Made by a program: the position numbers and the translations under genes. The notes beneath the pieces are model-generated. The model worked only from the letters and a program-made list of their open reading frames with translations, had not been told where the DNA came from and did not search any database. From Peribacillus frigoritolerans (GTDB lineage Bacteria > Bacillota > Bacilli > Bacillales > DSM-1321): a stretch of DNA of 64,000 bases. How positions within the stretch are numbered: the first letter of the stretch is position 1; each line of letters starts with the position of its first letter. The stretch lies in contig JAUPFL010000001.1 of the NCBI GenBank assembly GCA_030562215.1, positions 868,001-932,000 of the forward strand, read 5' to 3'. Positions 7,710 through 40,203 of the stretch are shown piece by piece.

Positions 7710-7727
7710 TAGTTACCTAGGTAACTA
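7710..7727. promoter_or_regulatory. Probable MarR operator palindrome
   Basis: Perfect 18-bp inverted repeat TAGTTACCTAGGTAACTA lying 20 bases upstream of the marR start codon. Size and symmetry fit a MarR dimer site, implying autoregulation of marR-MFS. Confidence 0.75.
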
Positions 7728-7849
7728 TACACCTACTCATTAAAAAAGTCTAGCCCTCAAGATAACGAAAAAGTCGTATGCACACTGTATCCTCAGCTTC
7801 TCCATCACTCCCGGGACAAAAAAATCCCCCTTTCAGGAGATTCAAGCTT

Positions 7850-8028: not shown

Positions 8029-8101
8029 GGGCCAAACACAAAAGTAAACCCCGCTATTAGCGAGGTCCGAATATATGCTTCTTTTCTTCTCATTGATAAC
8101 A

Positions 8102-9189: not shown

Positions 9190-9216
9190 AGTCTTTTCCC
9201 CCTTCGATTCATCAGT

Positions 9217-10083: not shown

Positions 10084-10197
10084 TCCAATCGGCCCCTTTT
10101 TCAATATAATCCCTATTTTAACCGAAAGAGCGTGGATAAACACGTTTAACAAACCCGTATATATTCTTGGTATGGTTTCAATCCTTATATGTATATA

Positions 10198-10238
10198 AAC
10201 AAGCTGCACCTAATTAAGGTAGGTGCAGCTTGTTTTCT
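10198..10238 (-). terminator. Terminator of the double P-loop ATPase gene
   Basis: AACAAGCTGCACCT / AGGTGCAGCTTGTTTT, 14-bp arms. Confidence 0.85.
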
Positions 10239-11355: not shown

Positions 11356-11442
11356 TTTCACACTCTCCCTCACAATAAAGATGTGCTTCAAGACAGCGTA
11401 TGAAGAAAAGGCCTAATAGGTGAATACCTAAAGGTAAACAAT

Positions 11443-11917
11443 TTATTTTATCAGGGCTACAGATTCCGCTTGTGTGACTTCCAGGAATTCTGATGGTTTT
11501 AAAACGATCTGTGTACCGATTTTCCCTCCACTTACAATGATTTCAGGCAGGTTTGTTGCACTTTCATCGATAAAGGTCGGGTATTGCTTTTTCATTCCGA
11601 TCGGGGAACAGCCTCCCGAATGTACCCTGTGTATTTTTGCAGATCTTTAACCGCAAGCATTTCAATTTTTTTTGCACCTGCGGCCTTCGCCGCTTTTTTC
11701 AAATCCAGTTCGGTGGCTACAGGGATGACAAATACGTAAAGTTGCTTCGGTCCGTTATGGGTAACAAGCGTTTTAAAAACGGTTTCTGGCGCTTTTCAAT
11801 CTTGTCCGCAACAGTGATCCCGTCAATTTTTCCATCGCGGGCATCATAGCTCATCATGCCATACCCTATACGTTTGTTATCAAGAATTCGCATTGCATTC
11901 GTTTTACTGGCTCCCAT
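11443..11917 (-). CDS. ybaK: Cys-tRNA(Pro) deacylase YbaK/EbsC (frameshifted)
   Basis: Trans-editing enzyme that hydrolyses mischarged Cys-tRNA(Pro). With frameshifts near 11790 and 11620 removed, the protein reads T-N-A-M-R-I-L-D, then T-V-F-K-T-L-V-T, the invariant K of the family in [15 protein letters not shown], and ends E-S-V-A-L-I-K. About 158 residues, the family norm. ATG 11917 is preceded by AAGGGGA. Confidence 0.85.
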
Positions 11918-11973
11918 AAGAAAATTCCCCTTATCGTTTTCTACCATCTTACCATTTTAATTACCAGGCAAGA

Positions 11974-12003
11974 AGAAAAGCACAGCGCTTATGCATCTGT
12001 GCT
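11974..12003 (-). terminator. Possible terminator beyond gntK
   Basis: AGCACAG / CTGTGCT hairpin, T-rich tail on the minus strand; 137 bases beyond gntK. Confidence 0.4.
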
Positions 12004-12139
12004 ATAAGACTGTAGACAGTTTCGAAGAAAAGCCCGTTTGCCTCAGTTTTTATTGAAAAAAGTTCCAGTTGTTTTCAGAAATCAGCTCTCTTTTAAACAA
12101 CTTGAAACACAGTGCTTATTCATCTTGCTTCCCCTAAAA

Positions 12140-13680
12140 TCATTCTAAATGACGTCTTTGGAAATCGGCTATCCTCTTGTAGTCGCCTTCCAATTGCCTG
12201 CTCACGGATAAATAAATCGACATCAATTCTTCATACACTTTAACGTTCTCTTCGATCGGGACAAGTTCATTCGTTTCACCAACCATACCCTCAACCTCAT
12301 CAAGGCTTTCGATTTCACCTAAAGCATATAATCCAAGAACTGCGGCACCTAAGCTCGAACTCTCAAAGCTTTCGGGAATTGTCACATTTTGATTGAATAT
12401 ATCAGCCATGATTTGGCGCCAGAGCTTCGAACGGACAAATCCGCCGCTTGCATGAATCTTCTCGGGAGCACCAGTCAATTCCTTTACAGCAATAAGGACA
12501 CTGTACAAGTTATACATCACACCCTCCAGCACTGCCCGGACCATATGGTCACGGGTGTGATGAAGCGCCAGTCCAAAGAAGGAGCCCCTTGCATCGGCAC
12601 TCCATAATGGTGCCCGTTCCCCAGCCATATACGGATGGAATATCAACCCATCAGAACCAGGTGCAATATTAGAAGCCATATCCGTCAGAATCTCATAGGA
12701 GTCCTGTCCCGAAGCCTTCGCTTTTTCGATTTCCACACGGCCTAATTGATCTCGTGCCCATCGGAAGGTGATTCCCCCATTGTTGACCGGTCCGCCGATT
12801 ACCCAATGATTCTCGGTAAGGGCATAGCAGAATGTCCTGCCTTTGGGATCGGTAAGCGGCCTGTCACTGACGGTTCTTACCGCACCGCTCGTTCCGATTG
12901 TCACTGCCAGAACGCCTGGCTTGATTGCGTTTTGACCTAAGTTGGCAAGCACGCCATCACTCGCGCCAATCACAAACGGGGTCCCAGCATGAATGTTCAT
13001 TTTTGCAGCTAATTCCTCACTTAAGCCTGAGAGGATATGTGTTGTAGGGACAAGCGTCGGCAGCTTGTCCGCCCCAATTCCAGCAATGGTGAGTGCCTCT
13101 TGATCCCACTTCAGTTCATTCAAGTTGAACATGCCCGTTGCAGAAGCGAGCGAATAATCCATCACATACTCATTGAAGAATTTATAGATGATGTATTCTT
13201 TTATTCCTATAAATTTGTCCGTTTCGTTAAAAATCCCTGAATGTTCATTTCTTAACCACATTACTTTCGTGATTGGCGACATTGGGTGAATGGGGGTTCC
13301 CGTCCTGTGATACAATTGCATCCCCTGTTCCGAAGCCTTCAATTTCTCCGCATAGGCAACCTTCGATTATCTGCCCATGTAATGCTATTCGTCAGCGGGC
13401 TGCCGTCTTTACCCATTGCGATCAAGCTATGCATCGCCGAACTGAACGATATGAAGCCCAGTTCTTGCTTTTCAATTCCGCTTGCAATCATGACCTCGCC
13501 TATGGCAATGATGACCGCTTTATAAATTTCTTCGGGATCTTGTTCCGCAACGGAAGGAGTTGGACTGTGCAGAGGATATCCCCTTGAACAAGATTGGATA
13601 ACCTCCCCCTTTTGAAAAAGAACAACTTTCGTACTCGTCGTGCCAATATCGATCCCCATCATATAACCTGAATGTTCCAT
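12140..13680 (-). CDS. gntK: Gluconate kinase GntK, FGGY family (frameshifted)
   Basis: ATP-dependent sugar kinase. The N-terminal ATPase loop G-I-D-I-G-T-T-S-T-K and I-T-W-A-D-N-R segment come first, then A-S-D-G-V-L-A-N-L-G, G-T-S-G-A-V-R and the C-terminal A-S-G-G-F-V-R-S-K-L-W of FGGY kinases. A one-base loss near 13345-13355 splits it after W-A-D-N-R. About 513 residues. Start ATG 13680. The adjacent gntP relic supports gluconate specificity over other FGGY substrates. Confidence 0.88.
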
Positions 13681-13739
13681 ATTTACATCATGCTCCTTTC
13701 TCTTAAACAATTGAATTCAATAGTAAGATTAGGATAAGT

Positions 13740-14580
13740 GAAACGACTGATATAATCATTTCCATAGCCGTTCAAGACTTTAACGTCTGTGCGACTGCTG
13801 ATCATCCAAAACTCTGCACCATTCACGTGTGATGGAGTTAATGAGCCTGAACCGATTGCACAGACCGGCAATTTAATATAACACCAGGACAGACATGAAT
13901 TGGTTTAGCTCTACTTTATTAAAACCTCTTGCGCAACCTAATGTAAAGAATGAAACCATGTGGGCGATGATCGGTTTTCCAATGAAATCAATCCAATCAT
14001 TCAAGATTGAATCTTCACCAAACACAGCATTGAAAGCTCCAATCAACATTAAAACGACAAGATCGGCAATAAAATCGTGAAAAGGTCATGCCGAAACCTG
14101 GGAGCCAGCGGTTATGTTTATTGAAAAATTGTTTCACTGCCCCCGGGTGCCTGTACATCCATTCTTTTAGCTATGCAGGAGCCAAAAATGGGACCATAAC
14201 ATGCAATTCCGATTTTCAAAAGAAATTACACCGTTCTTTTTCCAATCGTATAAACGATTGGAAGCACGAGCCCAACATCGAAGATTACGGGCAACGATCA
14301 TCATCGCCCAATGGACTTTCTGTTCACTGAACTTATCAAAAAGGGATTCTCCACCCGACTCGGCCATCATCTTTCCAAGCGTGGTACCTGATACCGACAA
14401 TGAGTGCTTTCCTAACCTCCCCTATCTGAACAGCATCTGCAACATCCCGAATATCCATACGTGCGATGGTCCCTAAAATGACAGAAGCGAGAAGTAACGC
14501 AATAAACGGGTTCCATTTTACTTTGGCTATGATAGCGAGGCAGCAAGCCTATACATTCAATAATCCACTCTAAATCAGGA
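13740..14580 (-). pseudogene. gntP: Decayed gluconate permease gntP
   Basis: Fragments of a GntP-family permease in all three minus frames: N-P-F-I-A-L-L-L-A-S-V-I-L-G-T (about 14500), T-L-G-K-M-M-A-E-S-G-G with H-W-A-M-M-I-V (about 14360), G-K-P-I-I-A-H-M-V-S-F-F (about 13980) and G-S-G-S-L-T-P-S-H-V-N (about 13840), the last matching the family's A-G-S-V-I-A-S-H-V-N. Only about 850 bp remain of the usual 1350, and several frame changes plus stops are present, so this is real decay, not just assembly noise. Confidence 0.8.
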
Positions 14581-14672
14581 TAGGAAATCCATGAAGGTAA
14601 GATCTCAAAGAAAAAAGCATCGAACCCGTTCATTATGAACTAAACTCGATGCCTGATTCAGTCATGAAATGA

Positions 14673-15371
14673 TCATCCACCAATAAAAAGAGGACCGGAT
14701 CTATGCTTGATTTCTTCCTCCAATTGTTCAGGATAAGCAATGAGGAAGCAGGTGGATGGTCCTGATGATTTTTCAATATCGACTTCATTACTTATATGCA
14801 CAGAAACACCTTCACCACTTTGATCCAGATGCTCCCATTCATATGCAATCCCTTTTGAGCCGACTGGAAGTGCTTTAACACCTTCCATTTCACATAAGCT
14901 TTTATATAAAGATAATGGCGCGACCCAATCTTGCTGTTCCATTACTTCCTCTCCAACGAGCGGCCTGCCGATCAGAGCGATTTTCCGTAAGGGCTGTTGC
15001 TTTTTAACACGTTCATTCACTCGTTTACCGATCACCATAAGACCAAGTGCTGATTGAAGGAGCGGCATGTTACTTTCTGTGCTGCCAGTGATTGGAAGAT
15101 CGTCCATTCCCAATTCATTCAGCCCCTTCCTGACACCCCTGGTCAAGTCCACCCAGGCTTCATCACCGCAGAAATTATTTAGAACGACGGATACGGGTCT
15201 TCCGCCAACGCCCAGGCATTCCATGACGGCAACCCGAAAGGAATAATATCCAACGACCTCATAAGGGACATGGACAAGATCTTTTTCCTTCAGCCCGATC
15301 CCGCCGCTATTGTCACTTGAGACAATCAATGAATCTGATTCGGAAAATGGTAAAATCAATGAATCACTCAT
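14673..15371 (-). CDS. cblS: Probable alpha-ribazole kinase CblS (AIR-synthase-like)
   Basis: 232 residues resembling the N-terminal domain of PurM/AIR-synthase-like kinases: S-S-D-N-S-G-G-I-G near residue 18 and G-V-G-G-R-P-V-S-V-V-L-N-N near residue 53. It is the last gene of the corrinoid operon, next to an ECF-type S component. Firmicutes such as Listeria and Geobacillus use CblT plus CblS to import and phosphorylate alpha-ribazole, bypassing CobT; the pairing and absence of cobT here support that assignment. The identification rests on context and fold-level motifs. Confidence 0.68.
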   Translation of the reverse strand: MSDSLILPFSESDSLIVSSDNSGGIGLKEKDLVHVPYEVVGYYSFRVAVMECLGVGGRPVSVVLNNFCGDEAWVDLTRGVRKGLNELGMDDLPITGSTESNMPLLQSALGLMVIGKRVNERVKKQQPLRKIALIGRPLVGEEVMEQQDWVAPLSLYKSLCEMEGVKALPVGSKGIAYEWEHLDQSGEGVSVHISNEVDIEKSSGPSTCFLIAYPEQLEEEIKHRSGPLFIGG

Positions 15372-15393
15372 TCTGCGAGTCCATCTTTAAAAA

Positions 15394-15860
15394 TCATTTT
15401 TTCAAAACAGGCTCCAAGCGCGGCAGTAAAAGGACTGCTAATACTACATTTACCGCCGTCGCCACCGTTAATCCCGGAACCAATAACGTGTAAAAACCAG
15501 GGCTGATCAGAAATGCGAAAGGCATGGCTAAAACGAAGGCATTACTGATAAAGAAGAGGAAAAATGCACCTACTTTTTTTCCGTTTATATATAAAATGCT
15601 AAACATCCATGTCAGGACAGCCATTTCGACCATGATCAAAAAGTGGAATGGCCCAAGTGTCATGCCGCCGATGAACGCTGAAATGATATGACCAAGCCCA
15701 GCAACAATACCCCCGATACCGGGCCAAGTATGACAGCCGCCAAAAGGGCCGGAAAACTATCCAAAGCGATGCTTCCGATCGGTGAAGGGATTTTAATCAT
15801 TGCCCCTACCGCCGATAAGGCGATGAATATAGCAATTGCACTAATTTTTCTTACGTCCAT
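15394..15860 (-). CDS. cblT: ECF transporter S component, probable alpha-ribazole transporter CblT (frameshifted)
   Basis: Small integral membrane protein with about five hydrophobic helices. The first half starts M-D-V-R-K-I-S-A-I-A-I-F-I-A-L-S and shows the A-x-x-x-A helix pattern of ECF S components; the second half is V-E-M-A-V-L-T-W-M-F. A single-base change in the G-run near 15717-15723 breaks the frame; corrected sequence gives G-L-G-H-I-I-S-A-F-I-G-G. The specificity for alpha-ribazole is inferred from its place between pduO and the CblS-like gene. The shared EcfA/EcfT module is not in this window. Confidence 0.75.
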
Positions 15861-15862
15861 GT

Positions 15863-16447
15863 TTACTCTTTTTCCTTTCTTTTCCCTCCCCGGAACACAT
15901 TTGCGCTACGGATATATTCCACATCTTTCACACCAAGACGGAAATTGATCACACGTGCAACAGCAAAGAAGTAATCCGACAAACGATTTAAATATTGAAG
16001 TGATAATGGTGAAACGGCCGCACCCGACTTGATCAATGAAACGACCAATCGTTCTGCCCTCCTTGTCACGGTTCGGGCAATGTGAATCGTTGCAGCCGCT
16101 TTTGAGCCGCCAGGCAGGATAAACTTTTCCAGTTCCGGCGCTTCAAGTATGAAGGCATCTATTCGTTCTTCCAAATAGGTAATGGCCTCATCCGTCAGCT
16201 TTTGTGGGGCTTTCTCGGAAACGGTTGCCAAATCTCCTCCGCAGTCAAATAACTCATGCTGGATTTTCTCTAGATCGGCCAGTATATCCGTGAATATCGC
16301 AGGATCCAATTCTGTCACCGCAAGACCGATATAGCTATTCACTTCATCCACCGTTCCATAAGATTCAACACGAATGTCATCCTTGTCAAGCCGACCTCCG
16401 ATTACGCTTGTTTGTCCCTTATCCCCTGTACGTGTATAGATTTTCAT
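15863..16447 (-). CDS. pduO: ATP:cob(I)alamin adenosyltransferase, PduO type
   Basis: Adenosylates cob(I)alamin or cobinamide. The N-terminal K-I-Y-T-R-T-G-D-K-G-Q-T ATP-binding signature and the C-terminal R-T-V-T-R-R-A-E-R and Y-L-N-R-L-S-D-Y-F-F-A-V-A-R motifs are diagnostic for the PduO/YvqK family. 194 residues and intact. It sits mid-operon, two bases before the cblT start, so it supplies adenosylated substrate to the CbiB/CobU/CobS steps. Confidence 0.93.
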   Translation of the reverse strand: MKIYTRTGDKGQTSVIGGRLDKDDIRVESYGTVDEVNSYIGLAVTELDPAIFTDILADLEKIQHELFDCGGDLATVSEKAPQKLTDEAITYLEERIDAFILEAPELEKFILPGGSKAAATIHIARTVTRRAERLVVSLIKSGAAVSPLSLQYLNRLSDYFFAVARVINFRLGVKDVEYIRSANVFRGGKRKEKE

Positions 16448-25664: not shown

Positions 25665-25738
25665 GTCCCAGTAGCTCAGCAGGATAGAGCGACAGCCTCC
25701 TAAGCTGTAGGTCGTAGGTTCGATTCCTATCTGGGACG
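25665..25738 (+). tRNA. tRNA-Arg (CCT anticodon)
   Basis: Seven-bp acceptor GTCCCAG/CTGGGAC, D-loop GCTCAGCAGGATAGAGC, anticodon loop CTCCTAA giving CCT (reads AGG), and T-arm GTAGGTTCGATTCCTAT. No CCA encoded. Its 3' half is the attachment site of the 14.5-kb element that follows. Confidence 0.95.
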
Positions 25739-25742
25739 CTAA
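25697..25742 (+). repeat. attL of the integrated element
   Basis: 46-bp direct repeat covering the tRNA-Arg anticodon loop to five bases past the acceptor stem (CTCCTAAGCTG...GGGACGCTAA). An identical copy is at 40158-40203, next to the integrase gene. Confidence 0.93.
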
Positions 25743-25846: not shown

Positions 25847-26660
25847 TTACCACCTGTGGTTTGACGCCATATCGGTGTTTATATTGTTAACTAAAGAAGC
25901 AAAACCATCAAAATCAGGGAATAATGTTTCAGTTCTGATATCGAAGGATTCAATCAATATTTTTTGGCTTCTTTTTTTAGTTCCGGAGAAATGGCTATAA
26001 AAATAGTCTCTCCTTTATTTTTTGGTAAAATTAAACTTCCTGTTACTTCATTACTTATCCTGCTATATAAAAATACGGCATGTTGAGCGGCAATTCTTTT
26101 TGAAACAACCGGCGGTTCCATAAATACGGGTAAATCTTCGGTGGATAATTCTTTCATAATACTTTTATAATCTCTTTTTCTAAATAACCTTCATAATTTA
26201 AGCCGCCCAATGAATATGTATGGACACCTGTTATCAGACCTGTTTTATCAATATTTGAATTTAAACAAAACCATAAAGCAACTAGCATACTCTTTGAAAA
26301 GTCCACTAACCTTGTTGCTGCGCCGTGATGTTGTAATTTTGCTAATAGTTCCATATCACTAATAGGCAAGCCTTCATTTGTTCCATATCCTTTATGCCTA
26401 GCACTTGTTAGCATTCCTTTTTCGTAACTTGACAAATATAATTCATTTTGTTCTTGACCGCTATTAACAAGCCTTCTATAAGCTCCACTATCAATAGGCC
26501 AAGAAATATCACCCTGGCCCCTCCACAACATAATGTTTTTTCCTTTAATTTTACTAAGTTGAGAAGGAATTTCCATTAATTCAACAAAACTCTCAGGCAT
26601 CTGTATTTCCCCGAATATCCCACTATTGTATTTATCCATTTTAATCCCCGTTTTACTCAT
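25847..26660 (-). CDS. FRG-domain protein (frameshifted)
   Basis: About 271 residues reassembled across two A-run losses (about 26155 and 25960). The FRG domain is clear: L-W-R-G-Q-G-D-I-S-W-P near residue 45, then L-L-A-K-L-Q-H-H-G-A-A-T-R-L-V-D-F-S near residue 110 and A-L-W-F-C. The C-terminal part P-P-V-V-S-K-R-I-A-A-Q-H-A-V-F is the family's second conserved block. FRG proteins are common on mobile elements and near defence genes; their activity is poorly known. It is encoded with an XRE regulator and a small ORF. The N-terminal start could be M8. Confidence 0.82.
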
Positions 26661-27730: not shown

Positions 27731-28883
27731 ATGAAAAAGTGGATAGCAAAACAACAAGCAAAAGCCTCCTTAATGAAGGTTTTCCGGAATGGTGAAATAG
27801 GTATTAATTACTCTTACAGTTCAAATAGTGGTTTCGTGTACCCTAAAATACTTTCTATTCGTTTCAATTACTCTGAAAAATCCCTTAGTTATTTCTTTTC
27901 CCTTCCGACTGGTATGGATCCTAAGGTAATCAAGAAAAAGGAATATTGTTTCAAGCAGGTGTTCGGGGAGCGCATTGAGCTTAAAGGAGATGCCAAGAAA
28001 TTCACGCTTATAGTGTTTACCGCCCATATCCCTAAAATCACCCCTTATGACGCCAAACGCTTCAAAGAACAGGCAAAGAAAATGAAATTACCTATTGTAT
28101 GTGGTGTCGATATGAACGGGCAAGACGTGGTTTATGACATGGTGGAAAACCCACATTTATTAATATCCGGTGAAACTGGTTCCGGGAAATCCACTCAGTT
28201 GCGTTCAATCTTGAGCTCATTGATTGAATATATATCACCGGACCGACTGAAGATGTTCTTGTGTGATCTTAAACGCTCAGAATTCCCTATATTTCGTGGT
28301 GTAGATCATGTGGAAGGTGTCTTTGTGAAACCTGCGGATATGCTTCCTATGCTAAATTATTTACGCGAAGAAACAATCAAACGAGGTGACTTACTGGATG
28401 CACATGTAGTAGCGCATATCGATGACCTCCCTAATCCACCGCATTATATTGTGCTTTGTATCGATGAATTTGCCTTATTGAAAAAGGAAAAGAAGATTTG
28501 GGACCTTGTAGAAGAAATAAGTTCCATCGGAAGAGCTTTAGGAATCTATTTAATATTGTCTGTTCTTCGACCTGATCGAAATATTTTGGATGGTGTATTG
28601 AAGAATAACCTAACTGTTCGTATGGGTTTCAGTGCGCTGATTTAATTAACTCACGTATTATCGGTACACCAGGAAGCGAAAAACTAAAGGATAACGGAAG
28701 GTTTTTACTGAAATCGAAAGGCCAAGACTTAAAGGAGATTCAAGCCCCCTATTTAGACATTGATGAAGCTAAAAAGTTATTAGAGAATCATAAGTCTCCA
28801 ATTAATAAAAATCCCTGCAAAAAGCCCTCTAAGCGTTCTGATGACCCAGAGATTATTGACGCTATATTTGAGGTGTTAGACTG
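27731..28883 (+). CDS. FtsK/SpoIIIE/TcpA-type DNA-pumping ATPase (frameshifted)
   Basis: About 384 residues. Walker A G-E-T-G-S-G-K-S-T at 147-155, L-C-D-L-K-R-S-E-F at about 183, Walker B I-V-L-C-I-D-E-F-A-L-L at about 238, and S-S-I-G-R-A-L-G-I-Y-L-I-L downstream: all FtsK-family. It lacks transmembrane helices, as expected for a soluble coupling-type ATPase. One base is lost near 28640; the restored end continues to D-A-I-F-E-V-L-D with a TGA overlapping the next ATG. Probably moves element DNA during mobilisation. Confidence 0.82.
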
Positions 28884-29533
28884 ATGAGAAAACGCGATAA
28901 AAATATACTGGCCGATTTAGACCGTTTCCGTTGTATGACACGCAATGATATTATCGATCTTCATTTTTCCGGTTTGAAGAACCCTATTACTTGCTGCAAT
29001 ACGGTTATGAAGAGATTACGAAGAGATGGACATATCGAAGTGAATGCTGCTCAACAACCTTACATCTATTTCCCTTCACCAGCTCCTATAAAAAAGACTC
29101 GGCTAAAATTCCTCACTTCTTGAAAATCGTTGAATTCTATAAGTCACTGCTGAACTTTCAGCCACCAGAAACCTTTTTAGTTGAACCTAAGTATGGTAAG
29201 GGTCATATGGAACCTGACCTCTTTATGATCTGGAAGCGTGCTCCATTCTTTGTTGAAATCCAGCGTTCTATTTATTCCGAAAAGGTAATGAATGAAAAGT
29301 TTAACCGCTATGTATCTTATTTCATGAGCAATGAGTGGCAGCAGGAACCTTGGCAACCAGAAGATAAAAAGGTGTTTCCTAAGATCATATTGATCACCGA
29401 TACAAGGTATAATTTACCGACCCATTCAGGCGTCCAATTCTTTCAAGTCCATAATATAAAGCAATTCCTTACCTTTGCTTCTAGGACTCTGGATATAAAA
29501 AAGATCCTCCAAAACAGGAAAGGATCAAAATAA
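28884..29533 (+). CDS. Replication-relaxation family protein (frameshifted)
   Basis: About 216 residues, interrupted near 29098. The N-terminal half is a winged-helix-like segment (D-L-D-R-F-R-C-M-T-R-N-D-I-I-D-L-H). The C-terminal half, M-E-P-D-L-F-M-I-W-K-R-A-P-F-F-V-E-I-Q-R-S, matches the replication-relaxation family found beside FtsK-like ATPases on Gram-positive plasmids and islands; E-P-D and E-I-Q resemble a nuclease-like D...ExQ pattern (inference). It is likely the DNA-processing partner of the ATPase. ATG overlaps the ftsK-like stop. Confidence 0.78.
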
Positions 29534-30404: not shown

Positions 30405-30429
30405 CAAATAGACTTAGTGAATGCTGTTA

Positions 30430-30628
30430 ACCTTGGCAACCGGAAGATAAAAAGATTTTCCCTAAAATCATTTTGATCACCGATACCAGATATATTTTAC
30501 CGCAAAATTCATGTGTCCAATTCTTCCAAGTCCAGGACATAAAACAATTCCTTACTTTCACCTCGATAACTCGGGAAATAAAAAAAGACCCCAAGGAAAC
30601 TCCAGGAATTCGAATAAATATTGGATAA
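30430..30628 (+). pseudogene. Diverged duplicate of the replication-relaxation 3' end
   Basis: Open in one frame without a start: P-W-Q-P-E-D-K-K-I-F-P-K-I-I-L-I-T-D-T-R then F-F-Q-V-Q-D-I-K-Q-F-L-T-F, ending I-R-I-N-I-G. It aligns along its whole length with 29346-29540 but has many synonymous-type differences, so it came from a related element rather than from a recent local duplication. Confidence 0.85.
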
Positions 30629-30833: not shown

Positions 30834-33470
30834 ATGATTATTTTTGTTCCTGGTATTAAGGGCAGTGAACTATATGACGGGGATAACAAGAGATGGTTTC
30901 CGGCAACACAAAAAGATCTAGATTTATTAGACTTAAAAAATGACCTTGAGCCAAGGTCAGTCTTAAGACATGTTACACCTTTTGGAATCACCAAATTTAG
31001 TCAGGTAATTTACCGTGACCTCTTAGATGAATTTGGAGACAATAATTTATCACTTTTTCCGTACGATTGGAGAAGGTCCATATTTGATCACGTAGAAAAG
31101 CTTGCGAATAAAATAATTAATGAATCAAAGGCAAATAATGAAAAAGTTACACTAGTTGCTCACAGTATGGGCGGAATGCTTGCAAAACTTGCAATTCAAA
31201 AGCTTGAGGAGAAACAAGAATTACAGAGAATAAACAAATTCATCACAATTGGAACTCCTTGGCATGGAGCACCTGATGCATTTAAATCATTAACATATGG
31301 TGAACCTGGAATATTCGAAAAGTTATGGGTATTCTTCCAAACACTCTTATCAGCAGAAGCCACTAAAAATTTGGCTAGGATTTTACCCTCCGTTTATCAA
31401 TTACTGCCGTCTGAAACTTATTTCAATCATCCTGATGGTAAATTTATTGTTACCGAAGGAGAAATGGATATTACTTATGAAGGTTTTAAAACTAAAATTC
31501 AAAATCTTCATGACCTTGGTAAAAACGAAGATGAATTTGTAGACGTTTGGAAAAACTATATAGATCCACTTCACAAAGCTATGACCCAAGACTTGCCACC
31601 AGAACTAATTCATGACTGTTTAATAGGTCATTCAATTCCTACCTTATATAAAGTTCCTGAAATAAGTAAGAATGGAATTATACTCAAACTGTACAAGCAG
31701 CCATCAAGCTTTATGAATGGCGATGGTGTGGTGCCACTACATAGTGCTACCCCCTCACATAACGCAAACTTGTTTTTTACTGAAGGAGAACATTCAAACC
31801 TTTGTTCCCTACCCCAAGTAATTAACTTTATAAAATGGTCAGAAGGCAATGAAGATTTAAAAGTTCTACCAGACGGTATAACTTATTCAGAAAAAGATAT
31901 TCCAGTTAATAGCGGGTTAAAAGCTGGCTTAAAAGCCCGTATTATGTGTCCAGTTGAATCGACCATATTGGATGAACAAGGAGCATATGTGGCAGGAGTT
32001 TTCGATCCTAGTATAACTGAAATTAGCAAATTAGCAGAAAGTGACGATGTTAGATTCTATCACATAGGGGAATCTAAATATATCTTTTTTATGAATAGAC
32101 CAGAAGAAGACTTAACTTTTGAAATTCATGCTTATAAAGAAGGGATTGCATCTATTTCTCTAGAGATAATTGATAATCAAGAAGAAACAGAACTTAAGTT
32201 TGATACAATTCCAGTAAATAGTGAAAAATCAGCTAAATTGGTGATTCCTGCGAGCAAGCTAGTTGAAGAGTCGGTTTTGAAATATGAAGGTAAAGAAACT
32301 ACTCCTAAAAAGCGTAAATTAGTAGATAAAGATAAAATTAAGGAAATACCAGTACCCAAAATTAAAATAAACTTTCAACCTGCTGAAGGTGTTAAAAAGA
32401 TTTTGTATCGACACACTTACTCAGGCCCTGTCTTCCTAACGCTAGAATCAGATGATTTTGAAAAAATTGATGAACTTTTTTATTCTATAGATGGTAAATC
32501 AATATATAGATATAATGAAAAATCCCTTCTTGATTTAGCGCCTGGTAAACACATTATCGAGGTCTTTGGTAAGGATGTGTACAACCGCCCAATAACACCA
32601 GTAAATTCAAAAATTTATTTTGATACAGCTGCACCGAAAACAAAAGTATCGTTATTAGTTGAACCTGAAGGGATTTTTATCTCCTTTAAAGCTCAAAGCA
32701 ATAATTCACCTGCTGTAACTCACTATAGATTTTTAAATAAAGATACTGCGAAAGATGAAATTGAGTGGAAAACAACTGAAGGTGACCATAGAATACTGGT
32801 CCCTGCTAATAAACTAAGAGAAAACACAAAAGCGAGTATAGCTATCGAATTTTTCTCAAAAAATACCGAATTTGATTTTAAAGAAGAAGTGCAAAAATTC
32901 GAATTCAGTTTAGGTAATATTCCTATGCTTATGTGGGAGGAATTCACATCAGCATTAACACCAAGTATGGTTTGGGATAATATTCTTCCTCTTGGCTTGT
33001 TAGATTTATCAGAATTTAGTGTAAGTCAGCTCATCCAAAATAAATTCTACGATATTGGAGAAACTGATGTTATTGGAGACAATGTAAAAAGCATAAAGTT
33101 CCAATCAGACCCACTAACATTGGAAGTTTTTTTCTCAGAAAAATATTCCCTTTACTTTAGTGGCCCACCAACTGAGTTATTGCAATTAGGACAAGAATAC
33201 GAATTTTCGTTTGAATTAAGAACTGAGCGGGGAAATGAAAGGATTACTTCAACCAATCCAAGTGCAAGAATTCATGCTATTAAAGGAAAAAAACTTTCCG
33301 ATAAACCAATCGAACTTAAAGAGAAAAACGGTGTATTTAAAGGGAATTTCACTGTTAATAGCAACTTTAAAATTTTTAAACATAAATTAATCATAACAGA
33401 TACAAAAAATATTACTCCACCACTAAGAGAAATTCCTTTAATATTAAGTGAGCAAGTACAAGACGAGTAA
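30834..33470 (+). CDS. LCAT-like alpha/beta hydrolase with OmpL47-type domain
   Basis: 878 residues, intact, RBS GGGGG nine bases before ATG. Residues 1-340 are an LCAT/PDAT-type acyltransferase-lipase fold: F-V-P-G-I-K-G-S at 4-11, F-P-Y-D-W-R-R at 75-81, nucleophile Ser111 in A-H-S-M-G-G, G-T-P-W-H-G-A-P at 140-147, D297 in N-G-D-G-V-V-P and H320 in G-E-H-S-N as likely triad partners. Residues about 545-605 resemble an OmpL47 beta domain; the rest is beta-rich. No signal peptide, so probably cytoplasmic. Natural substrate unknown; a membrane lipid is plausible. Pairs with the next gene. Confidence 0.8.
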   Translation: MIIFVPGIKGSELYDGDNKRWFPATQKDLDLLDLKNDLEPRSVLRHVTPFGITKFSQVIYRDLLDEFGDNNLSLFPYDWRRSIFDHVEKLANKIINESKANNEKVTLVAHSMGGMLAKLAIQKLEEKQELQRINKFITIGTPWHGAPDAFKSLTYGEPGIFEKLWVFFQTLLSAEATKNLARILPSVYQLLPSETYFNHPDGKFIVTEGEMDITYEGFKTKIQNLHDLGKNEDEFVDVWKNYIDPLHKAMTQDLPPELIHDCLIGHSIPTLYKVPEISKNGIILKLYKQPSSFMNGDGVVPLHSATPSHNANLFFTEGEHSNLCSLPQVINFIKWSEGNEDLKVLPDGITYSEKDIPVNSGLKAGLKARIMCPVESTILDEQGAYVAGVFDPSITEISKLAESDDVRFYHIGESKYIFFMNRPEEDLTFEIHAYKEGIASISLEIIDNQEETELKFDTIPVNSEKSAKLVIPASKLVEESVLKYEGKETTPKKRKLVDKDKIKEIPVPKIKINFQPAEGVKKILYRHTYSGPVFLTLESDDFEKIDELFYSIDGKSIYRYNEKSLLDLAPGKHIIEVFGKDVYNRPITPVNSKIYFDTAAPKTKVSLLVEPEGIFISFKAQSNNSPAVTHYRFLNKDTAKDEIEWKTTEGDHRILVPANKLRENTKASIAIEFFSKNTEFDFKEEVQKFEFSLGNIPMLMWEEFTSALTPSMVWDNILPLGLLDLSEFSVSQLIQNKFYDIGETDVIGDNVKSIKFQSDPLTLEVFFSEKYSLYFSGPPTELLQLGQEYEFSFELRTERGNERITSTNPSARIHAIKGKKLSDKPIELKEKNGVFKGNFTVNSNFKIFKHKLIITDTKNITPPLREIPLILSEQVQDE

Positions 33471-33483
33471 AGGGTGATAGAAG

Positions 33484-34020
33484 ATGCCTACATGGTTTTG
33501 GATCCATGGAATTTTATTAGTCATTTGGATTGTCATCTGGGGTGGGATATATTACCTTCAATTATGGAGATTAAGCTTCCCTTTTGAAAAGATGACATCT
33601 TTTAAGATCGTTCTTTCCTTGTTCCTACCATTCAGTTGGCTGTCATCTTCGTTTTTAATCGGAATAATTTATTCACTTATTGGAGATTTTGTTTTTCTTG
33701 ACAAAGTCTTAGTGATATTTATCCCTTTAATAATATTGATTGTAATGTTCATTTATTATTTTATTAATTCTTCTATATACCATAAAAATGAAAACCAAAT
33801 ACAGACGAGTATTAAGAACTTAAAGGAAAATTGTCAGAAGTGGATTTTACAGTTTCCTTTTATAAGTGAAGAACAGTATGACCTACAAATTTTTATTTCA
33901 AAAGACCGACCTGTAGGAAGAATGATAATTTATGAACTTACCTGTAGTGAGGAAAGGGTTTTAAAAGAACAAACTGGTGATTTACCAAAAGAGGTTACGC
34001 TTTTATTTGTAAAAAAATAA
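33484..34020 (+). CDS. Membrane protein partner of the LCAT-like hydrolase
   Basis: 178 residues with three hydrophobic helices at about 5-25, 42-66 and 75-95, then a roughly 80-residue polar domain predicted to be cytoplasmic. Starts 13 bases after the hydrolase stop, with AGGGTGATAG as RBS, so the two form an operon. No known family. It could hold the hydrolase at the membrane, sense infection or act as its inhibitor; all three are inference. Confidence 0.72.
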   Translation: MPTWFWIHGILLVIWIVIWGGIYYLQLWRLSFPFEKMTSFKIVLSLFLPFSWLSSSFLIGIIYSLIGDFVFLDKVLVIFIPLIILIVMFIYYFINSSIYHKNENQIQTSIKNLKENCQKWILQFPFISEEQYDLQIFISKDRPVGRMIIYELTCSEERVLKEQTGDLPKEVTLLFVKK

Positions 34021-34052
34021 ATCTTCTCTATTGCACTAAATAAACGATTTAT

Positions 34053-34089
34053 AGAAACCCTTCTTCTAATAAGGAGAAGGGTTTCTACA
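34053..34089 (+). terminator. Hairpin ending the hydrolase operon
   Basis: AGAAACCCTTCT / AGAAGGGTTTCT, 12-bp arms, weak T-tail. Confidence 0.6.
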
Positions 34090-34532: not shown

Positions 34533-35090
34533 TTATCGCTTAAAGACTTGATGTGATTCAATCAGCAGCTTCCTCATATCTTTAGGAGTAGGACCAACAG
34601 CATCCATTCCTCCCGGTGACAATCCTATATCCCTCTGAGCTGATGAACTTAACTCTCGAGTCCAATGACTAACCGCCGACCTATAGCTTGAGGCTTTAAG
34701 ATAAAGACTATTAATCTCTGATAATCCTTTTAACAAAGCATTATGCTGTGGTTCTAACTTCTTGGCCATTGCTTTTGCTTGGTCTTCAATAGACTCTATC
34801 TCCTGTATCCACTTGCCCATTTCTTCTGAGATAAGGTTCTGAATCACTGGATTGTGCTTATCCCCAATTGCTTTGATCATGTCGTTACGTCTGGATATAC
34901 GACTGTTCACTTCCTTGATACGCTCATTCGTGGAGTCAATGTCCTGTTCGGTACCGGATAAAATGGCTGTCTGATACTCTCGGCTTAATTCGTCCAGATG
35001 CTCCTTGTCTACATCATTTTGTTCTTTTAGTTGGCTTAGTTGTCCAGATACTCGGTTTCTTTCTGCTTGTACACGTTCATCTAAATTCAT
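34533..35090 (-). CDS. Coiled-coil protein, possible scaffold-like
   Basis: 185 residues, almost wholly helical with heptad-like pattern through residues 1-130 (E-R-V-Q-A-E-R-N-R-V, E-R-I-K-E-V-N-S-R-I). Starts within the end of the prohead-protease gene. Position directly after a prohead protease is where phages encode scaffold or capsid proteins, but no capsid fold is evident here. Confidence 0.7.
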   Translation of the reverse strand: MNLDERVQAERNRVSGQLSQLKEQNDVDKEHLDELSREYQTAILSGTEQDIDSTNERIKEVNSRISRRNDMIKAIGDKHNPVIQNLISEEMGKWIQEIESIEDQAKAMAKKLEPQHNALLKGLSEINSLYLKASSYRSAVSHWTRELSSSAQRDIGLSPGGMDAVGPTPKDMRKLLIESHQVFKR

Positions 35091-35611
35091 TTACTGTCAC
35101 TCTCCCATTGGATTCCTTTTAATCGAGGATCGTTTTTATTTGTGGTACACCATGTATCCTTGTTAGCTGGACTGTTACAGATGCAAACTTCAAATACTTT
35201 GATCATTTTATAATCTTGAACTATGATCTTCTCTTTCCAATTCAGTAGTTCAAATAATTCTGCAGCTCTTTGCTCTTCTTTAAAATCCCGTTCCTGTTTC
35301 ACCTTAAAAGATAAACTACAATGTCTAATCTGATTCTTTTTCACTTTTCTATATGCATCCCATGCTAAAGGTGAGTCAGGTATAATTTTAAAGAACAAAC
35401 CCCTATCATTAATGTGAATACAAAGGGTACCTCTGTCAGTACGGCCTAGTTCTTGTTCGTAATCGTGGCCGATAGTTGCGCCTACCACGTTGTCCAAATA
35501 AACTGATTCACGGTTCGTCTTTTCAAAGGTATAAGTATTCGTAAGCTTGTTATAATTCCAATAAGCATCATTGAAAGGCATCGCCAGTCCATATATAGCC
35601 CGTTCATTCAT
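35087..35611 (-). CDS. HK97-family prohead protease-like protein
   Basis: 174 residues. I-Y-G-L-A-M-P-F-N at the start, then T-I-G-H-D-Y-E-Q-E-L-G-R-T with the probable catalytic His, L-C-I-H-I-N-D-R-G-L-F-F and C-S-L-S-F-K-V with the probable catalytic Ser fit phage prohead (U35) protease. ATG 35611 follows GGGGAG; upstream in-frame codons overlap the previous gene. In phages it processes the capsid during maturation; here no capsid gene is present, so it may act on a helper phage's proteins. Confidence 0.72.
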   Translation of the reverse strand: MNERAIYGLAMPFNDAYWNYNKLTNTYTFEKTNRESVYLDNVVGATIGHDYEQELGRTDRGTLCIHINDRGLFFKIIPDSPLAWDAYRKVKKNQIRHCSLSFKVKQERDFKEEQRAAELFELLNWKEKIIVQDYKMIKVFEVCICNSPANKDTWCTTNKNDPRLKGIQWESDSK

Positions 35612-35615
35612 TCCC

Positions 35616-35839
35616 TTAACAACTCCCCTTATCTTGTTCAAGCCTGTTTTTAATGTCTTTCTTCGCCTCTTCAATGGCCTTGAGGATTTCGTTTTTTTCT
35701 AGAAGAACTTAGGTCCTCCTTGCGAATTAAGTTACTAGAATACTTTCCCGTATATCCAATTTCTCTGCTATATCCCACAACGGGATTCTTCCCTGGCTTC
35801 TCTAATTTCTACATTTTTTGGTGGGAATTGATTTGTCAT
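35616..35839 (-). CDS. Small phage-type HTH protein (frameshifted)
   Basis: Starts M-T-N-Q-F-P-P-K-N-V-E-I-R-E-A-R. With two frame changes (about 35775 and 35695) it continues L-W-D-I-A-E-K-L and N-L-I-R-K-E-D-L, then K-A-I-E-E-A-K-K-D-I. This pattern is typical of small HTH-like proteins of Bacillus prophages. It ends just before the protease start. Function unknown. Confidence 0.55.
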
Positions 35840-36902: not shown

Positions 36903-37336
36903 TTAATACTTTCTTTTTCTTTCTTTAGTATCATCTTGTAGACCTCCAGAGGTATCACCTTGTAGACTAGGAGTAGTATCATCTTGTAGACTACCTACTG
37001 GAAAACAGTTAGCATATTTTTTAACTGTCCACTGATCATAATCTTTGTTAAAAGCAAGAACTTTCGATTTACTCCCGCCGCCTTTTTGAATTTCTAAAAT
37101 CACCTTGTTATCAACCAATGATTTCAAACTTGAACTAATTCGAGCACGAGTTAAGTTAGTTGCCCTTTCTAAAAACCTAATGAAATATCATGCTTTTTTC
37201 GGGTATATCCATATGTGTTTCTCCAAACAGCCATAATGATTTTCAATTGGTTTGTAGTGAATGTATACATTTGAATAGCCTCTAAAATTTCATTTGCTAC
37301 CCTTGTATAACCATTTTCTAACTGTACGTCCGCCAT
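36903..37336 (-). CDS. RepO-type replication initiator (frameshifted)
   Basis: Phage replication protein O domain: V-Q-L-E-N-G-Y-T-R-V-A-N-E-I-L, then L-K-I-I-M-A-V-W-R-N-T-Y-G-Y. Repairing a break near 37170 gives the winged-helix part L-T-R-A-R-I-S-S-S-L-K-S-L. The C-terminal region holds the tandem peptide L-Q-D-D-T/L-Q-G-D-T, encoded by three 24-bp DNA repeats. It should bind the element's origin and recruit host helicase. A second break near the stop may hide a slightly longer end. ATG 37336. Confidence 0.75.
36928..36991. repeat. Three 24-bp iterons inside repO, candidate origin
   Basis: GTATCATCTTGTAGAC at 36928, GTATCACCTTGTAGAC at 36952 and GTATCATCTTGTAGAC at 36976, each 24 bp apart. 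Lambda-type initiators carry origin iterons inside their own gene, so this is a good origin candidate. Confidence 0.6.
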
Positions 37337-37350: not shown

Positions 37351-37764
37351 TTAATCCTCGAAATTCGATTCCCACTTTTCAAGTGTTTTCATTGCTTCAT
37401 TGTGAGTTATAAGGCGTGATTCCACTGCCTTGAATAATTCTTCGATAGCATATTTTTTCGTATTAGATTTGATGAATTTTGTCGTTTTTGGATTAACCAC
37501 AACCCGTGCCCTTGAACCTTCATAAAACGATTGTCCGAAATTCCATTTGGTGTGCATTTTAGAACGCTGGTTTACTGTAGTATTTAAGACATCATTTACA
37601 GTGACTTTCTTAAACCCATCATCTTCTTGGACCTTTATTAGATCACCTTCACCCAGACTCATATAAGAATTTCTTCCGTTTACCTCATGAACCAGTTCCA
37701 CAATATCTAATCCATAATCAACAGTAAGAAAGCCTGTTAAATAGGTTTCATCCAATTTGTTCAC
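37351..37764 (-). CDS. Hypothetical protein of the early operon
   Basis: 137 residues. N-terminal part is acidic (T-V-D-Y-G-L-D-I-V-E-L-V-H-E-V), the middle basic (K-M-H-T-K-W-N-F-G-Q) and C-terminus helical. Overlaps the excisionase-like gene by 17 bases, so translation is coupled. No family recognised. Confidence 0.65.
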   Translation of the reverse strand: MNKLDETYLTGFLTVDYGLDIVELVHEVNGRNSYMSLGEGDLIKVQEDDGFKKVTVNDVLNTTVNQRSKMHTKWNFGQSFYEGSRARVVVNPKTTKFIKSNTKKYAIEELFKAVESRLITHNEAMKTLEKWESNFED

Positions 37765-37951
37765 CAGCTTCTAATGCAGCGGATTCCTGTTGAGCAAGCC
37801 AACGATCGACTGAATCAATTTTGAATAAAATCCTACGTCCTAATTTCACACTTGGAATTTTCCTTTCTCTAACCAGCGTATAAACCAAGCCTGTAGAAAT
37901 TCCTAAATAATCAGCAACTTCTTTTGTCGTTAAAGTTGTTCTCTCCATCAT
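37748..37951 (-). CDS. Excisionase-family HTH protein
   Basis: 67 residues with the MerR-like excisionase domain: L-T-T-K-E-V-A-D-Y-L-G-I-S-T-G-L-V-Y-T-L-V-R-E-R-K-I (spanning helix-turn-helix) and F-K-I-D-S-V-D-R-W-L. ATG 37951 (or 37948) follows AAAGGGAGGGG. It probably directs integrase toward excision or acts as an early activator. Confidence 0.78.
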   Translation of the reverse strand: MMERTTLTTKEVADYLGISTGLVYTLVRERKIPSVKLGRRILFKIDSVDRWLAQQESAALEAGEQIG

Positions 37952-37979
37952 TTCCCCTCCCTTTTTTATGAGAATCCCT

Positions 37980-38198
37980 TTAAACAACTGGTATTTGGAT
38001 AACAAAAATTTCATCAAATTCGACTTCTAAAGCATCTATTATTTTCTTTGCAATTCGCGGGCTAGGGTTTCGTCTGCCATTACAAATTTGGACGGCAGTT
38101 GCTTGTCCAATCTCAGCAATATTCGCCAGAGCTCTTTTGGATAGTCCCTTTCTTATGAGTATTTCGTTGAGACGTTCAATTTTCGGCTCAATTTTCAT
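37980..38198 (-). CDS. Cro-like HTH regulator
   Basis: 72 residues: L-S-K-R-A-L-A-N-I-A-E-I-G-Q-A-T-A-V-Q-I-C is the XRE helix-turn-helix. ATG 38198 follows GGAAGGTGG. First gene of the leftward early operon, divergent from the CI-like gene, i.e. the Cro position. Confidence 0.8.
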   Translation of the reverse strand: MKIEPKIERLNEILIRKGLSKRALANIAEIGQATAVQICNGRRNPSPRIAKKIIDALEVEFDEIFVIQIPVV

Positions 38199-38218
38199 TT
38201 TTAAGTACCACCTTCCAC

Positions 38219-38328
38219 TCGAGTATTTTAGTACTCGATTACTATAGTACTCATAATATCCTGAAATAAACCTCTTGTAAATACTTTTATTTATTTTTGT
38301 ACTCAAATTGAATATAATAATACTCAAA
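38219..38328. promoter_or_regulatory. Switch region with repeated TACTC operators
   Basis: Dyad TCGAGTA-N6-TACTCGA at 38219-38238, plus half sites TACTC at 38248-38252, 38299-38303 and 38320-38325. They lie between the divergent Cro-like and CI-like genes and would let both repressors compete. Confidence 0.72.
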
Positions 38329-38342
38329 GGGGTGGTTATAAA

Positions 38343-38777
38343 TTGGAGATAAAGGAATTTGGTCAATTTATCAAAAGGTTACGTATAGATAAATCACTTA
38401 GTACGCATAGGTTAGCGGAGTTATCTGGGGTATCACAATCATATATTTCACATCTTGAGAGTGGACGAAAAAAGAATGCACCCTCTGCAGAGATTATTAA
38501 AAAACTCTCAGAAAACCTCGACGTTTCTTATATTGAATTAATGGTTGCCGCAGGATATTACGGAGAGGATGAGTTATTAGAACCAGTAGAAGAAACCGTA
38601 AAGGGTTCTATCTGGATGAAACCAGGAGCCGGTAAAACAGGTATGACCATGATTGACTTAGCTAGTATTCTGGAGCAAAAAAATTTAATCTATAAAAATT
38701 TAGTACTTACTCAGAATGACCGTAAGCGAATTTTAGATATGTTGGATATTATGTTTCAACCAAAGGAGGGTAAATAG
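38343..38777 (+). CDS. CI-like HTH repressor
   Basis: 144 residues; HTH L-S-T-H-R-L-A-E-L-S-G-V-S-Q-S-Y-I-S-H-L-E-S-G-R at the N-terminus and a C-terminal extension without an S24 peptidase or metallopeptidase motif. Relief of repression may therefore depend on a helper anti-repressor, as in phage satellites. TTG start after GGGGTGG. Last base shared with the integrase start. Confidence 0.82.
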   Translation: MEIKEFGQFIKRLRIDKSLSTHRLAELSGVSQSYISHLESGRKKNAPSAEIIKKLSENLDVSYIELMVAAGYYGEDELLEPVEETVKGSIWMKPGAGKTGMTMIDLASILEQKNLIYKNLVLTQNDRKRILDMLDIMFQPKEGK

Positions 38778-39980
38778 TGGCAGGCAACGGATCAATTAGA
38801 GAACGAGGAAAAGGCAGCTGGGAATTGACCGTTTCCCTTGGTAAAGGTGCTGATGGGAAATATAAGAAAAAGACGCGAAATGTAACTGCAAAAAATAAAA
38901 CGGAAGCAAAAGAATTGCTCAGGAAATTTGTAAGTGAAATTGAATCTGGGCAACTTGTAGATTTAGATAAGGTCCTTTTAAAGATCTAGTTGTTGAATGG
39001 AGAAAAAACATGCTTCTTCTTTAGCAATTCGAACACAACAAGGGTATGAATCAAACCTTAATTTACGGGTACTTCCCTCTTTCGGACATTTGAAGGTCTC
39101 TAATATAAAGAAGGTCCATATCCAAAACTTCTTTGATGATTTAAAAGAAGACGGTGCGAGGATAGATGGTAAAGGTTCCAAGCTTTCTAATTCCTCTATA
39201 AACAATCACCATACCCTTTTAAGCAGCATCTTTTCCTTTGCGGTTGATAGAGGTTATATAAAGGAAAACCCTATGCGGGGTGTTAAAAAGCTTAAAGTAG
39301 AAAATAAAAAGATGAATGTTTATCAAAAATCAGATATTGCCGCATTAATGGAATCCTTAAACACTGCTCCCCTCAATTGGAGAACACTAGTCATTTTAGC
39401 AATTGTCTCTGGTGCTCGAGCTGGTGAATTAGTGGGCCTTGAATGGCAACATGTTAATTTTGAAAAAGAAACTATTCTAATTGAACAGTCTTTGACCTTA
39501 AAAACAGGTGAAGGTGTTAAGGTTAAATCTACAAAAACAGAGCGTTCCAGGATTGTCAGTATTCCTCCATTTGTGATTCAGCTTCTAAAGGAATTGAAGC
39601 ACGAAAAAAACAAAGCGCGATTGCAAGCAGCTGAAATGTGGATAAGGGAATGGGATGGTGTAGAACGTGATTTTGTCTTTACAACTCCTAATGCTTTTGG
39701 ACGTCCAATCCGGCCAGATAGTGTCACTCAATGGTGGGAAAGGTTTTTGAAAAAGAATGATCACTTAAAATTCATTAATTTTCATGGACTCCGGCATACA
39801 TCCGTTTCAATTTTAATTGATGAAAATACACCTATGAAGGCAATTAGTGAGCGGGTAGGTCATGCGAAGATAGGAACGTCCATGGATATATACGGACACT
39901 TACTGGAAGAAGCGGATAAAAGGGCAGCTGCAAGTATGGACAAGGTATTTGGGGATTTAGGAATTAATGCAGGTAAATAA
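38777..39980 (+). CDS. int: Tyrosine site-specific integrase (frameshifted)
   Basis: About 400 residues after repair of a break near 38985. N-terminal AP2-like arm-binding domain (R-E-R-G-K-G-S-W-E-L-T-V), SAM-like core-binding domain, then the catalytic domain: Arg in S-G-A-R-A-G-E-L, Lys in K-S-T-K-T-E-R-S-R, H-G-L-R-H and the nucleophile in S-M-D-I-Y-G-H. GTG start. It lies 180 bases from attR and integrates the element at tRNA-Arg. Confidence 0.92.
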
Positions 39981-40157: not shown

Positions 40158-40203
40158 CTCCTAAGCTGTAGGTCGTAGGTTCGATTCCTATCTGGGACGC
40201 TAA
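40158..40203 (+). repeat. attR of the integrated element
   Basis: Identical 46-bp copy of the tRNA-Arg 3' part; without the 5' half, so not a functional tRNA. Confidence 0.93.

Follow-up and report, generated by a model that had tools for sequence, protein, structure and literature searches.

The window, a 64,000-nucleotide stretch of the Peribacillus frigoritolerans genome (contig JAUPFL010000001.1, positions 868,001 to 932,000), carries an intact two-gene operon on a satellite-like mobile element. The first gene (30834–33470, forward strand) encodes an alpha/beta hydrolase of the LCAT/PLA2G15 type with 878 residues, and the second (33484–34020, forward strand), which starts 13 nt after the hydrolase stop codon, encodes a membrane protein of 178 residues. 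Both frames begin with ATG and are uninterrupted, in agreement with an original prediction made from the DNA letters alone. Full-size relatives of the hydrolase were found at eight further loci, and each is followed by a membrane-protein gene on the same strand. The hydrolase lacks a signal peptide and its catalytic triad is invariant among the relatives. We consider the chances evenly balanced that the pair is a cytoplasmic, membrane-docked (phospho)lipase cassette serving as a phage-exclusion or abortive-infection effector.

The hydrolase and its membrane partner

The hydrolase is laid out as a catalytic domain (residues ∼1–340) followed by a β-rich tail (∼366–878), and a Shine-Dalgarno-like GGGGGAA lies ahead of its start. 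It matches the Pfam family PF02450 (LCAT) with 70.7 bits and an E value of 1.7e-19, above the curated cut-off of 21 bits, and lesser alpha/beta-hydrolase models of Pfam match as well. Upon comparison of a profile of the nine relatives with solved structures, the top match was group XV (lysosomal) phospholipase A2 (PDB 4x90, E = 3.2e-17), and LCAT itself was found at E ∼1e-5. The Ser-Asp-His order of the LCAT family is retained in the alignment with 4x90. The predicted nucleophile Ser111 (AHSMGG; codon 31164–31166, forward strand) falls on the AHSMG motif in group XV phospholipase A2, the acid Asp297 (NGDGVVP; 31722–31724, forward strand) with GDGDGTV, and the base His320 (GEH; 31791–31793, forward strand) with EH. 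Since the alignment passes through the AHSMG, GDG, and EH motifs, the triad originally named appears to be well chosen; indeed, the three residues are invariant in nine of nine aligned hydrolases, at identities down to 22%. From its sequence, the enzyme is predicted to work in the cytoplasm as an LCAT/PLA2G15-type serine (phospho)lipase or acyltransferase.

Group XV phospholipase A2 and LCAT carry signal peptides, being either secreted or lysosomal. The window hydrolase matches them in the profile of its catalytic part but differs from them in having no signal peptide and in carrying a β-rich tail of ∼500 residues and a membrane partner. It begins at its first β strand, without a hydrophobic segment, in line with the lack of a signal peptide that had been claimed. 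With starts as set, the 19-residue hydropathy windows of the nine hydrolases all remain below a mean of 1.6 (highest 1.41) and the first strand is preceded by 0–5 residues; longer in-frame starts at four loci (L024, +11 residues; L069, +20; L070, +6; L071, +11) lie outside this test.

The structural model of the hydrolase is of modest quality, with a predicted local distance difference test score (pLDDT) of 69 and parts of the catalytic domain below 50. In Foldseek searches, its N-terminal part resembled lysosomal phospholipase A2 and LCAT, with template modeling (TM) scores over the target of 0.51–0.55 and a root-mean-square deviation of 7–9 (0.55 and 7.4, respectively, for group XV phospholipase A2). 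Residues 406–878 are modeled mainly as strands with five short helices, and this tail resembled tandem β-sandwich proteins. Complement C3, which filled the top rows, gave TM-scores of ∼0.1 and was taken only to indicate an array of β sandwiches. The OmpL47 label of the original prediction was not borne out: no such match was found in Pfam up to E = 1, although the C-terminal portion is modeled as β-rich and sandwich-like.

The partner gene is preceded by a Shine-Dalgarno-like AGGGTGA, and a 16-pair hairpin after the operon (34052–34087, forward strand) is a possible terminator, terminator-like except that its tail is not a clean run of T. The model of the partner, built with six sequences (pLDDT 87), shows long helices at residues 3–24, 36–66, and 71–122, the third of which extends beyond the membrane, followed by a β-β-α-β arrangement. 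The loop charges, with two Lys/Arg in loop 1 and none in loop 2, fit an N-out, C-in orientation, which places the tail probably in the cytoplasm. Thus, the three helices and cytoplasmic tail that had been proposed are found in the model and fit the charges, but hydropathy windows give four hydrophobic stretches in the window protein and two to four across the nine partners. Judged from the model, the partner probably spans the membrane three times and ends in a small alpha/beta tail on the cytoplasmic side. Compared with the PDB, the tail reached Z values up to 7.3 with cytoplasmic domains of ring-building and CDF-type proteins, a similarity that may merely reflect a common arrangement. No match at E ≤ 0.001 was found for the partner model in a viral structure library, nor any Pfam or NCBIfam family above cut-off or PHROG at E ≤ 0.01 for its sequence.

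Conservation and location of the pair

Genome searches covered 199, 397, 398, and 398 genomes in overlapping sets and gave full-size relatives in five of them, namely the genome of the window itself and G124, G742, G533, and G595. A profile scan of genome contigs found Fictibacillus arsenicus (the same contig as in G124) and Paenibacillus rubinfantis, and three contigs came from IMG/VR, resulting in nine distinct loci with the window included. Alignment profiles were needed for this; searches of the genome contigs and IMG/VR with single proteins returned nothing or the query itself. The eight other lipases are of similar size and are 55%, 44%, 55%, 41%, 40%, 24%, 22%, and 23% identical to the window protein. 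For the relatives in G742, G533, and G595, the profile match took in 551, 516, and 492 positions, respectively, out of 881, with E values between 2e-57 and 4e-54. The three distant lipase ORFs (open reading frames) are 842–866 residues long and were aligned end to end, with demonstrated homology confined to the profile-matched part.

The original prediction was to be given up if the pair was not kept together in other genomes, and it has come through this comparison. At all nine loci, the hydrolase gene is followed on the same strand by a gene for a membrane protein of 178–199 residues, at distances of 7, 10, 12, 13, 15, 18, 22, 24, and 25 nt (starts as set). This recurrence is far beyond chance. 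Five other close partners are 22%–37% identical to the window partner, and the three distant ones (L069–L071) have in common with it their size, hydrophobic segments, and position. The lipase gene was compared by codon position between the window and two relatives (L022 and L024); third positions differed most (0.58, versus 0.32–0.35 and 0.23 at the others), which in these two comparisons, made for the lipase gene only, indicates constraint on the lipase. Lipase and partner show correlated pairwise distances, with r = 0.71 across the six close loci (permutation p = 0.012). Over nine loci, r rises to 0.91 (0 of 5000 permutations), a value for which the distant partners had to be aligned. Such a correlation is also what linked inheritance by itself would give.

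The pair appears to be cargo of prophages, a satellite, and islands. Three of the pairs (L023, L069, and L071) lie amid phage-type ORFs; here and below, lysis and other context labels for which no family is cited come from reading of the translations. The pair on one of the IMG/VR contigs (L024/L053; the others are L025/L054 and L055) has a replication region on one side and HNH/terminase-type ORFs on the other. The L070 site looks chromosomal and is beside an XRE gene. In Fictibacillus, the pair has replication-relaxation and Mrr genes beside it, with genes of the RadC and UvrD types within ∼30 kb. Plasmid records gave 13 and 4 matches, none of which covered 80% of the query.

Possible roles of the pair

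Our best guess ranks phage exclusion ahead of lipid modification, a helper function in lysis, a toxin with its immunity protein, and a toxin-antitoxin pair. In such a mechanism, the membrane partner would dock the lipase at the inner leaflet and restrain or position it, supplying membrane location and probably restraint, and the β array would supply binding or sensing. Infection, or another change in the membrane, would be sensed by the transmembrane protein or by the β array, and the triggered lipase would hydrolyze the phospholipids of the cell's own membrane. The infection would then abort or a second phage be excluded, from which the resident prophage or satellite would profit. That the pair is kept on phage-type elements, the satellite-like element, and an island speaks for such an advantage to the element. 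The fuller proposal, that a cytoplasmic LCAT-family phospholipase under the control of a three-transmembrane partner destroys the host's own membrane upon infection and forms a new two-gene anti-phage system, is tentative and stands somewhat below an even chance. If it is such a system, prophages, satellites, and islands may carry it to exclude rivals, a suggestion put forward with similar reserve.

The original prediction knew of no described system with this pair, and none was found either in the defense library or in the literature searched. PADLOC 2.0.0 (2023) gave no significant match, the lipase reaching E = 0.0074 at best (to LmuA) and the partner E = 0.56, and no LCAT-type anti-phage system was found in a literature search whose scope left out subscription journals, preprints, and defense catalogues after 2023. 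Lipases that attack membranes are established effectors of bacterial immunity, but these searches showed no anti-phage system that joins the LCAT/PLA2G15 fold to a membrane partner of its own. CapV, the effector of the cyclic oligonucleotide-based antiphage signaling system (CBASS), is a patatin-like phospholipase that acts on the cell's own membrane in abortive infection; it has a different fold and a catalytic dyad and is activated by a cyclic nucleotide. By analogy, the role proposed for the window lipase would resemble that of CapV, a phospholipase acting as effector against its own membrane; no CD-NTase gene was recognized beside the pair in Pfam searches of the window genes.

LCAT-type enzymes also occur in what are likely conflict modules of another kind. 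In a Streptomyces plasmid (L076:1766–7254), an LCAT-type hydrolase adjoins an NB-ARC/CHAT protein, and in a Gluconobacter plasmid (L077:4143–7371), one lies in a gene run with a CHAT protein. An LCAT core is fused to CHAT on a plasmid of Rhizobium leguminosarum, and on a Rhizobium phaseoli plasmid, genes for an S8 peptidase and an FRG protein lie in the vicinity of an LCAT protein. These are the 4 of 13 matching plasmid records whose flanks were examined; by eye, an evident signal peptide is absent at the start of all four proteins. Analogous to these cases is a reported conflict system in which an alpha/beta-hydrolase gene always neighbors caspase domains (Kaur et al., 2020; PMC7159879). The main text of that paper contains no word starting with LCAT or lipase, and its hydrolases are likened to the present one by the alpha/beta-hydrolase label only. 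Together with the plasmid cases, they make it plausible that an LCAT-type enzyme could serve as an effector in the cytoplasm. In contrast to these CHAT/STAND-associated hydrolases, the window hydrolase is partnered by a membrane protein rather than an NTPase or protease, and the similarity is in the catalytic core only. No STAND NTPase or CHAT/caspase gene was found among the window genes searched.

Known or candidate defense genes lie within ∼20 kb of four of the nine pairs. A homologue of PD-T7-4 (E = 4.1e-46) and a match to a TIR-type effector (6.3e-14) are just upstream of the L024/L053 pair; PD-T7-4 was obtained when anti-phage genes were selected experimentally (PMC9519451). At L025/L054, Abi_alpha (PF14337, 1.3e-44) is 2.5 kb from the pair. 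The Fictibacillus pair has Mrr_cat at 4.5 kb, and the neighbor in the window element is an FRG protein of the candidate family PDC-S15. A close member of PDC-S14 (L020:8653–9501, E = 9e-141) lies ∼20 kb from the Fictibacillus pair, outside both sets of the following control. Non-overlapping ORFs of at least 110 residues within 4.5 kb of the nine pairs (n = 76) were compared with those 4.5–10.5 kb away (n = 68, including 12 chromosomal genes from beyond the window element), with a PADLOC threshold of E ≤ 1e-10. Specific effector-type matches were FRG, PD-T7-4, the TIR effector, and Abi_alpha among the near ORFs and Mrr among the far ones. Left out as generic, by judgment, were HTH_VI, capH, SspH, mad8, and RmrA (near) and mad3, DpdF, mad8, LmuB, and AriA (far); for most of these, the matched member is not given in the PADLOC output.

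The outcome of this control is the first of several points that weigh against a defense role. The counts of 4 of 76 near and 1 of 68 far are not significantly different (Fisher p = 0.37), and when all PADLOC matches are counted, at most 10 of 76 near and at most 12 of 68 far, there is no enrichment. At five loci (L023, L055, L069, L070, and L071), no specific defense neighbor was seen. The clustering with known defense genes is thus anecdotal. Of the original interpretation, the signal-less LCAT-type lipase, the constant membrane partner, and carriage on a mobile element are supported, and the abortive-infection role is a proposal. No sensor domain was recognized in the pair, and three pairs directly follow lysis-type ORFs. 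The hydrolase model falls below a pLDDT of 50 around Asp297 (residues 268–305), so it lends no independent support to the triad geometry. For the distant lipases (L069–L071), the profile match covers just 492–551 of 881 positions, and profile comparison did not show their three partners to be homologous to the window partner. Finally, long LCAT proteins of another family (f68) are also paired with membrane proteins, so the pairing of a lipase with a membrane protein need not mean defense.

This f68 pairing also bears on the alternative that fares best, an envelope-lipid modifier of the kind met in lysogenic conversion. The enzyme would alter the lipids of the membrane or lipoteichoic acid, to gain fitness or to change a receptor, rather than act as a triggered killer. 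Acyltransferases belong to the LCAT family, and the f68 genomes likewise combine long LCAT proteins with small membrane neighbors. A modifier of the envelope fits less well with nine hydrolases in which, with starts as set, no signal peptide was seen, and with a sporadic distribution, since no match was found in the 20 listed genomes of the same genus. We regard this explanation as unlikely, with roughly one chance in six.

A little less probable still is an accessory role in lysis, in which the lipase and the membrane protein would assist holin and endolysin in disrupting the membrane when the phage cycle ends. At L023, L025/L054, and L055, the pair forms the module that directly follows ORFs read as endolysin or holin. 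The gap ahead of the pair at these three loci is ∼220–350 nt, as would be expected for a separate unit, and no lysis gene was seen next to the pair at the other six, including the window, Fictibacillus, and L070. A tblastn search of phage records gave no match at E ≤ 1e-5. As the principal explanation, a lysis module was rejected because it fits only three of the nine loci.

Close behind in probability, and also improbable, is a lipase toxin directed against other bacteria, freed by lysis or secretion, with the membrane protein as its immunity factor. The two genes share one operon, and there is a precedent in TslA, a phospholipase A of the type VII secretion system that is reported to be neutralized by a lipoprotein, TilA (PMC10730906). 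Both pairs combine a phospholipase-type enzyme with a membrane-associated protein in Bacillota. The window hydrolase, however, has no signal peptide, and its C-terminal part is β-rich in the model, unlike the helical partner-binding domain of TslA. Its partner is modeled with three transmembrane helices and has no N-terminal lipobox cysteine, whereas TilA is a lipoprotein. By inspection of the window ORF list, no WXG100-like gene was seen beside the pair; no profile search for one was made. The least probable alternative, and a distinctly poor one, is stabilization in the style of a toxin-antitoxin system, in which the lipase would kill any cell that has lost the element, the membrane protein being the antidote: the operon is tight and found in several kinds of element, but to our knowledge neither a large toxin with a β array nor a toxin-first gene order is typical of such pairs.

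If phage exclusion is indeed the function, the pair would add an effector chemistry common to animal lipid metabolism, in a simple two-gene cassette, and would account for an intact 3.2-kb cargo in phage-type elements of Bacillota. Were it a lysis or lipid-modifying cassette instead, it would still be an unnamed conserved cargo pair.

The satellite-like element and the wider LCAT family

The element that carries the pair spans 14.46 kb and is flanked by a 46-bp repeat that covers tRNA-Arg(cct) (25665–25739) at its 3′ end. The two attachment (att) repeats, at 25697–25742 and 40158–40203 (forward strand), are identical in 46 of 46 positions, and a 20-bp repeat is found inside each end. A tyrosine integrase (38997–39980, forward; phrog_1, E = 3e-70) lies near the right-hand repeat. 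It is preceded by divergent repressor-type regulators, CI-like (38343–38777, forward; phrog_8, E = 2.4e-11) and Cro-like (37980–38366, reverse; phrog_3, E = 6.8e-10) by position, and by an excisionase-like HTH_17 protein (37748–38017, reverse; PF12728, E = 6.7e-16). A prohead protease-like protein of the Peptidase_S78 family (35087–35674, reverse; PF04586, E = 1.5e-17) is adjacent to a coiled-coil protein (34533–35090, reverse). Integrase and att repeats at a tRNA gene, divergent regulators, and an excisionase-like gene are all present, as in satellites, and the satellite-like character that had been proposed is upheld. The GC fraction in 1-kb steps is 0.31–0.40 inside the element and mostly 0.40–0.47 in the flanking chromosome. 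The element holds no unassigned ORF longer than 200 residues.

Some other frames of the element are interrupted, unlike the lipase pair. An FtsK/SpoIIIE-like ATPase (27731–28645, forward; PF01580, E = 1.4e-23) is broken at its 3′ end, and of a replication-relaxation protein, the C-terminal part is in frame (28991–29533, forward; PF13814, E = 1.7e-5). With an assembly that is reported to be 87% complete and consists of three contigs, assembly indels are as possible as decay for the interruptions in 27731–29533. An 82% copy, 157 nt long, of 29346–29502 in the 3′ part of the replication-relaxation gene is present at 30429–30585 (forward strand). The position of this relic, ∼250 nt upstream of the lipase start, suggests that the pair entered the element by recombination there. 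The FRG-domain gene (26154–26660, reverse; PF08867, E = 3.4e-16; PDC-S15, E = 6.8e-20) ends early, with an ATGA overlap to another frame that seemingly continues the protein. Three 18-nt direct repeats spaced 24 nt apart (36926–36991) may serve the element as iterons or as sites for a regulator.

A relative of the prohead protease, 44% identical, was found in 1 of 149 other related genomes, one of the same order (G080, locus L100), and none was found in IMG/VR. L100 belongs to what we take to be a phage satellite of the phage-inducible chromosomal island (PICI) type. The window element resembles PICI-type satellites in its integrase, repressor-type regulators, and excisionase-like gene, and it shares with L100 the coiled-coil and prohead-protease pair in the same order, the likeness of the coiled-coil proteins being judged by eye. 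It differs from them in having FtsK-like and replication-relaxation genes and in that no primase or terminase was recognized among the genes searched with Pfam and PHROG.

Beyond the nine loci, a class-level search matched 38 genomes; besides the genome of the window, G742, G533, and G595, the 34 others align over the catalytic core only. Five flanks of such core-only matches were seen (L061–L064 and L067), and these were set aside as another architecture, with at least ∼450 residues preceding the LCAT core. Distant LCAT matches of ∼420 residues in genomes of the same phylum were set aside as another family; the seven with inspected flanks (L080–L082, L089–L091, and L094) have no partner and lie between ORFs read as ispD- and ispF-like.

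Among the core-only matches, L061–L064 represent a second kind of LCAT/membrane pairing. These long proteins of family f68, from four genomes, have a membrane-protein ORF of 93–129 residues downstream (for example, L064:2633–3022 and L062:751–1083), at a distance of ∼15–90 nt in three and >300 nt in L061. The LCAT protein of L063 has a signal-like N terminus, as far as the locus shows. The satellite-like element at L100 (∼2033–16442) has 113-nt repeats, 93% identical and 14.3 kb apart, and is located at the 3′ end of an ORF read as glnA; in addition to the coiled-coil and prohead-protease genes, it carries a long tape-measure-like ORF.

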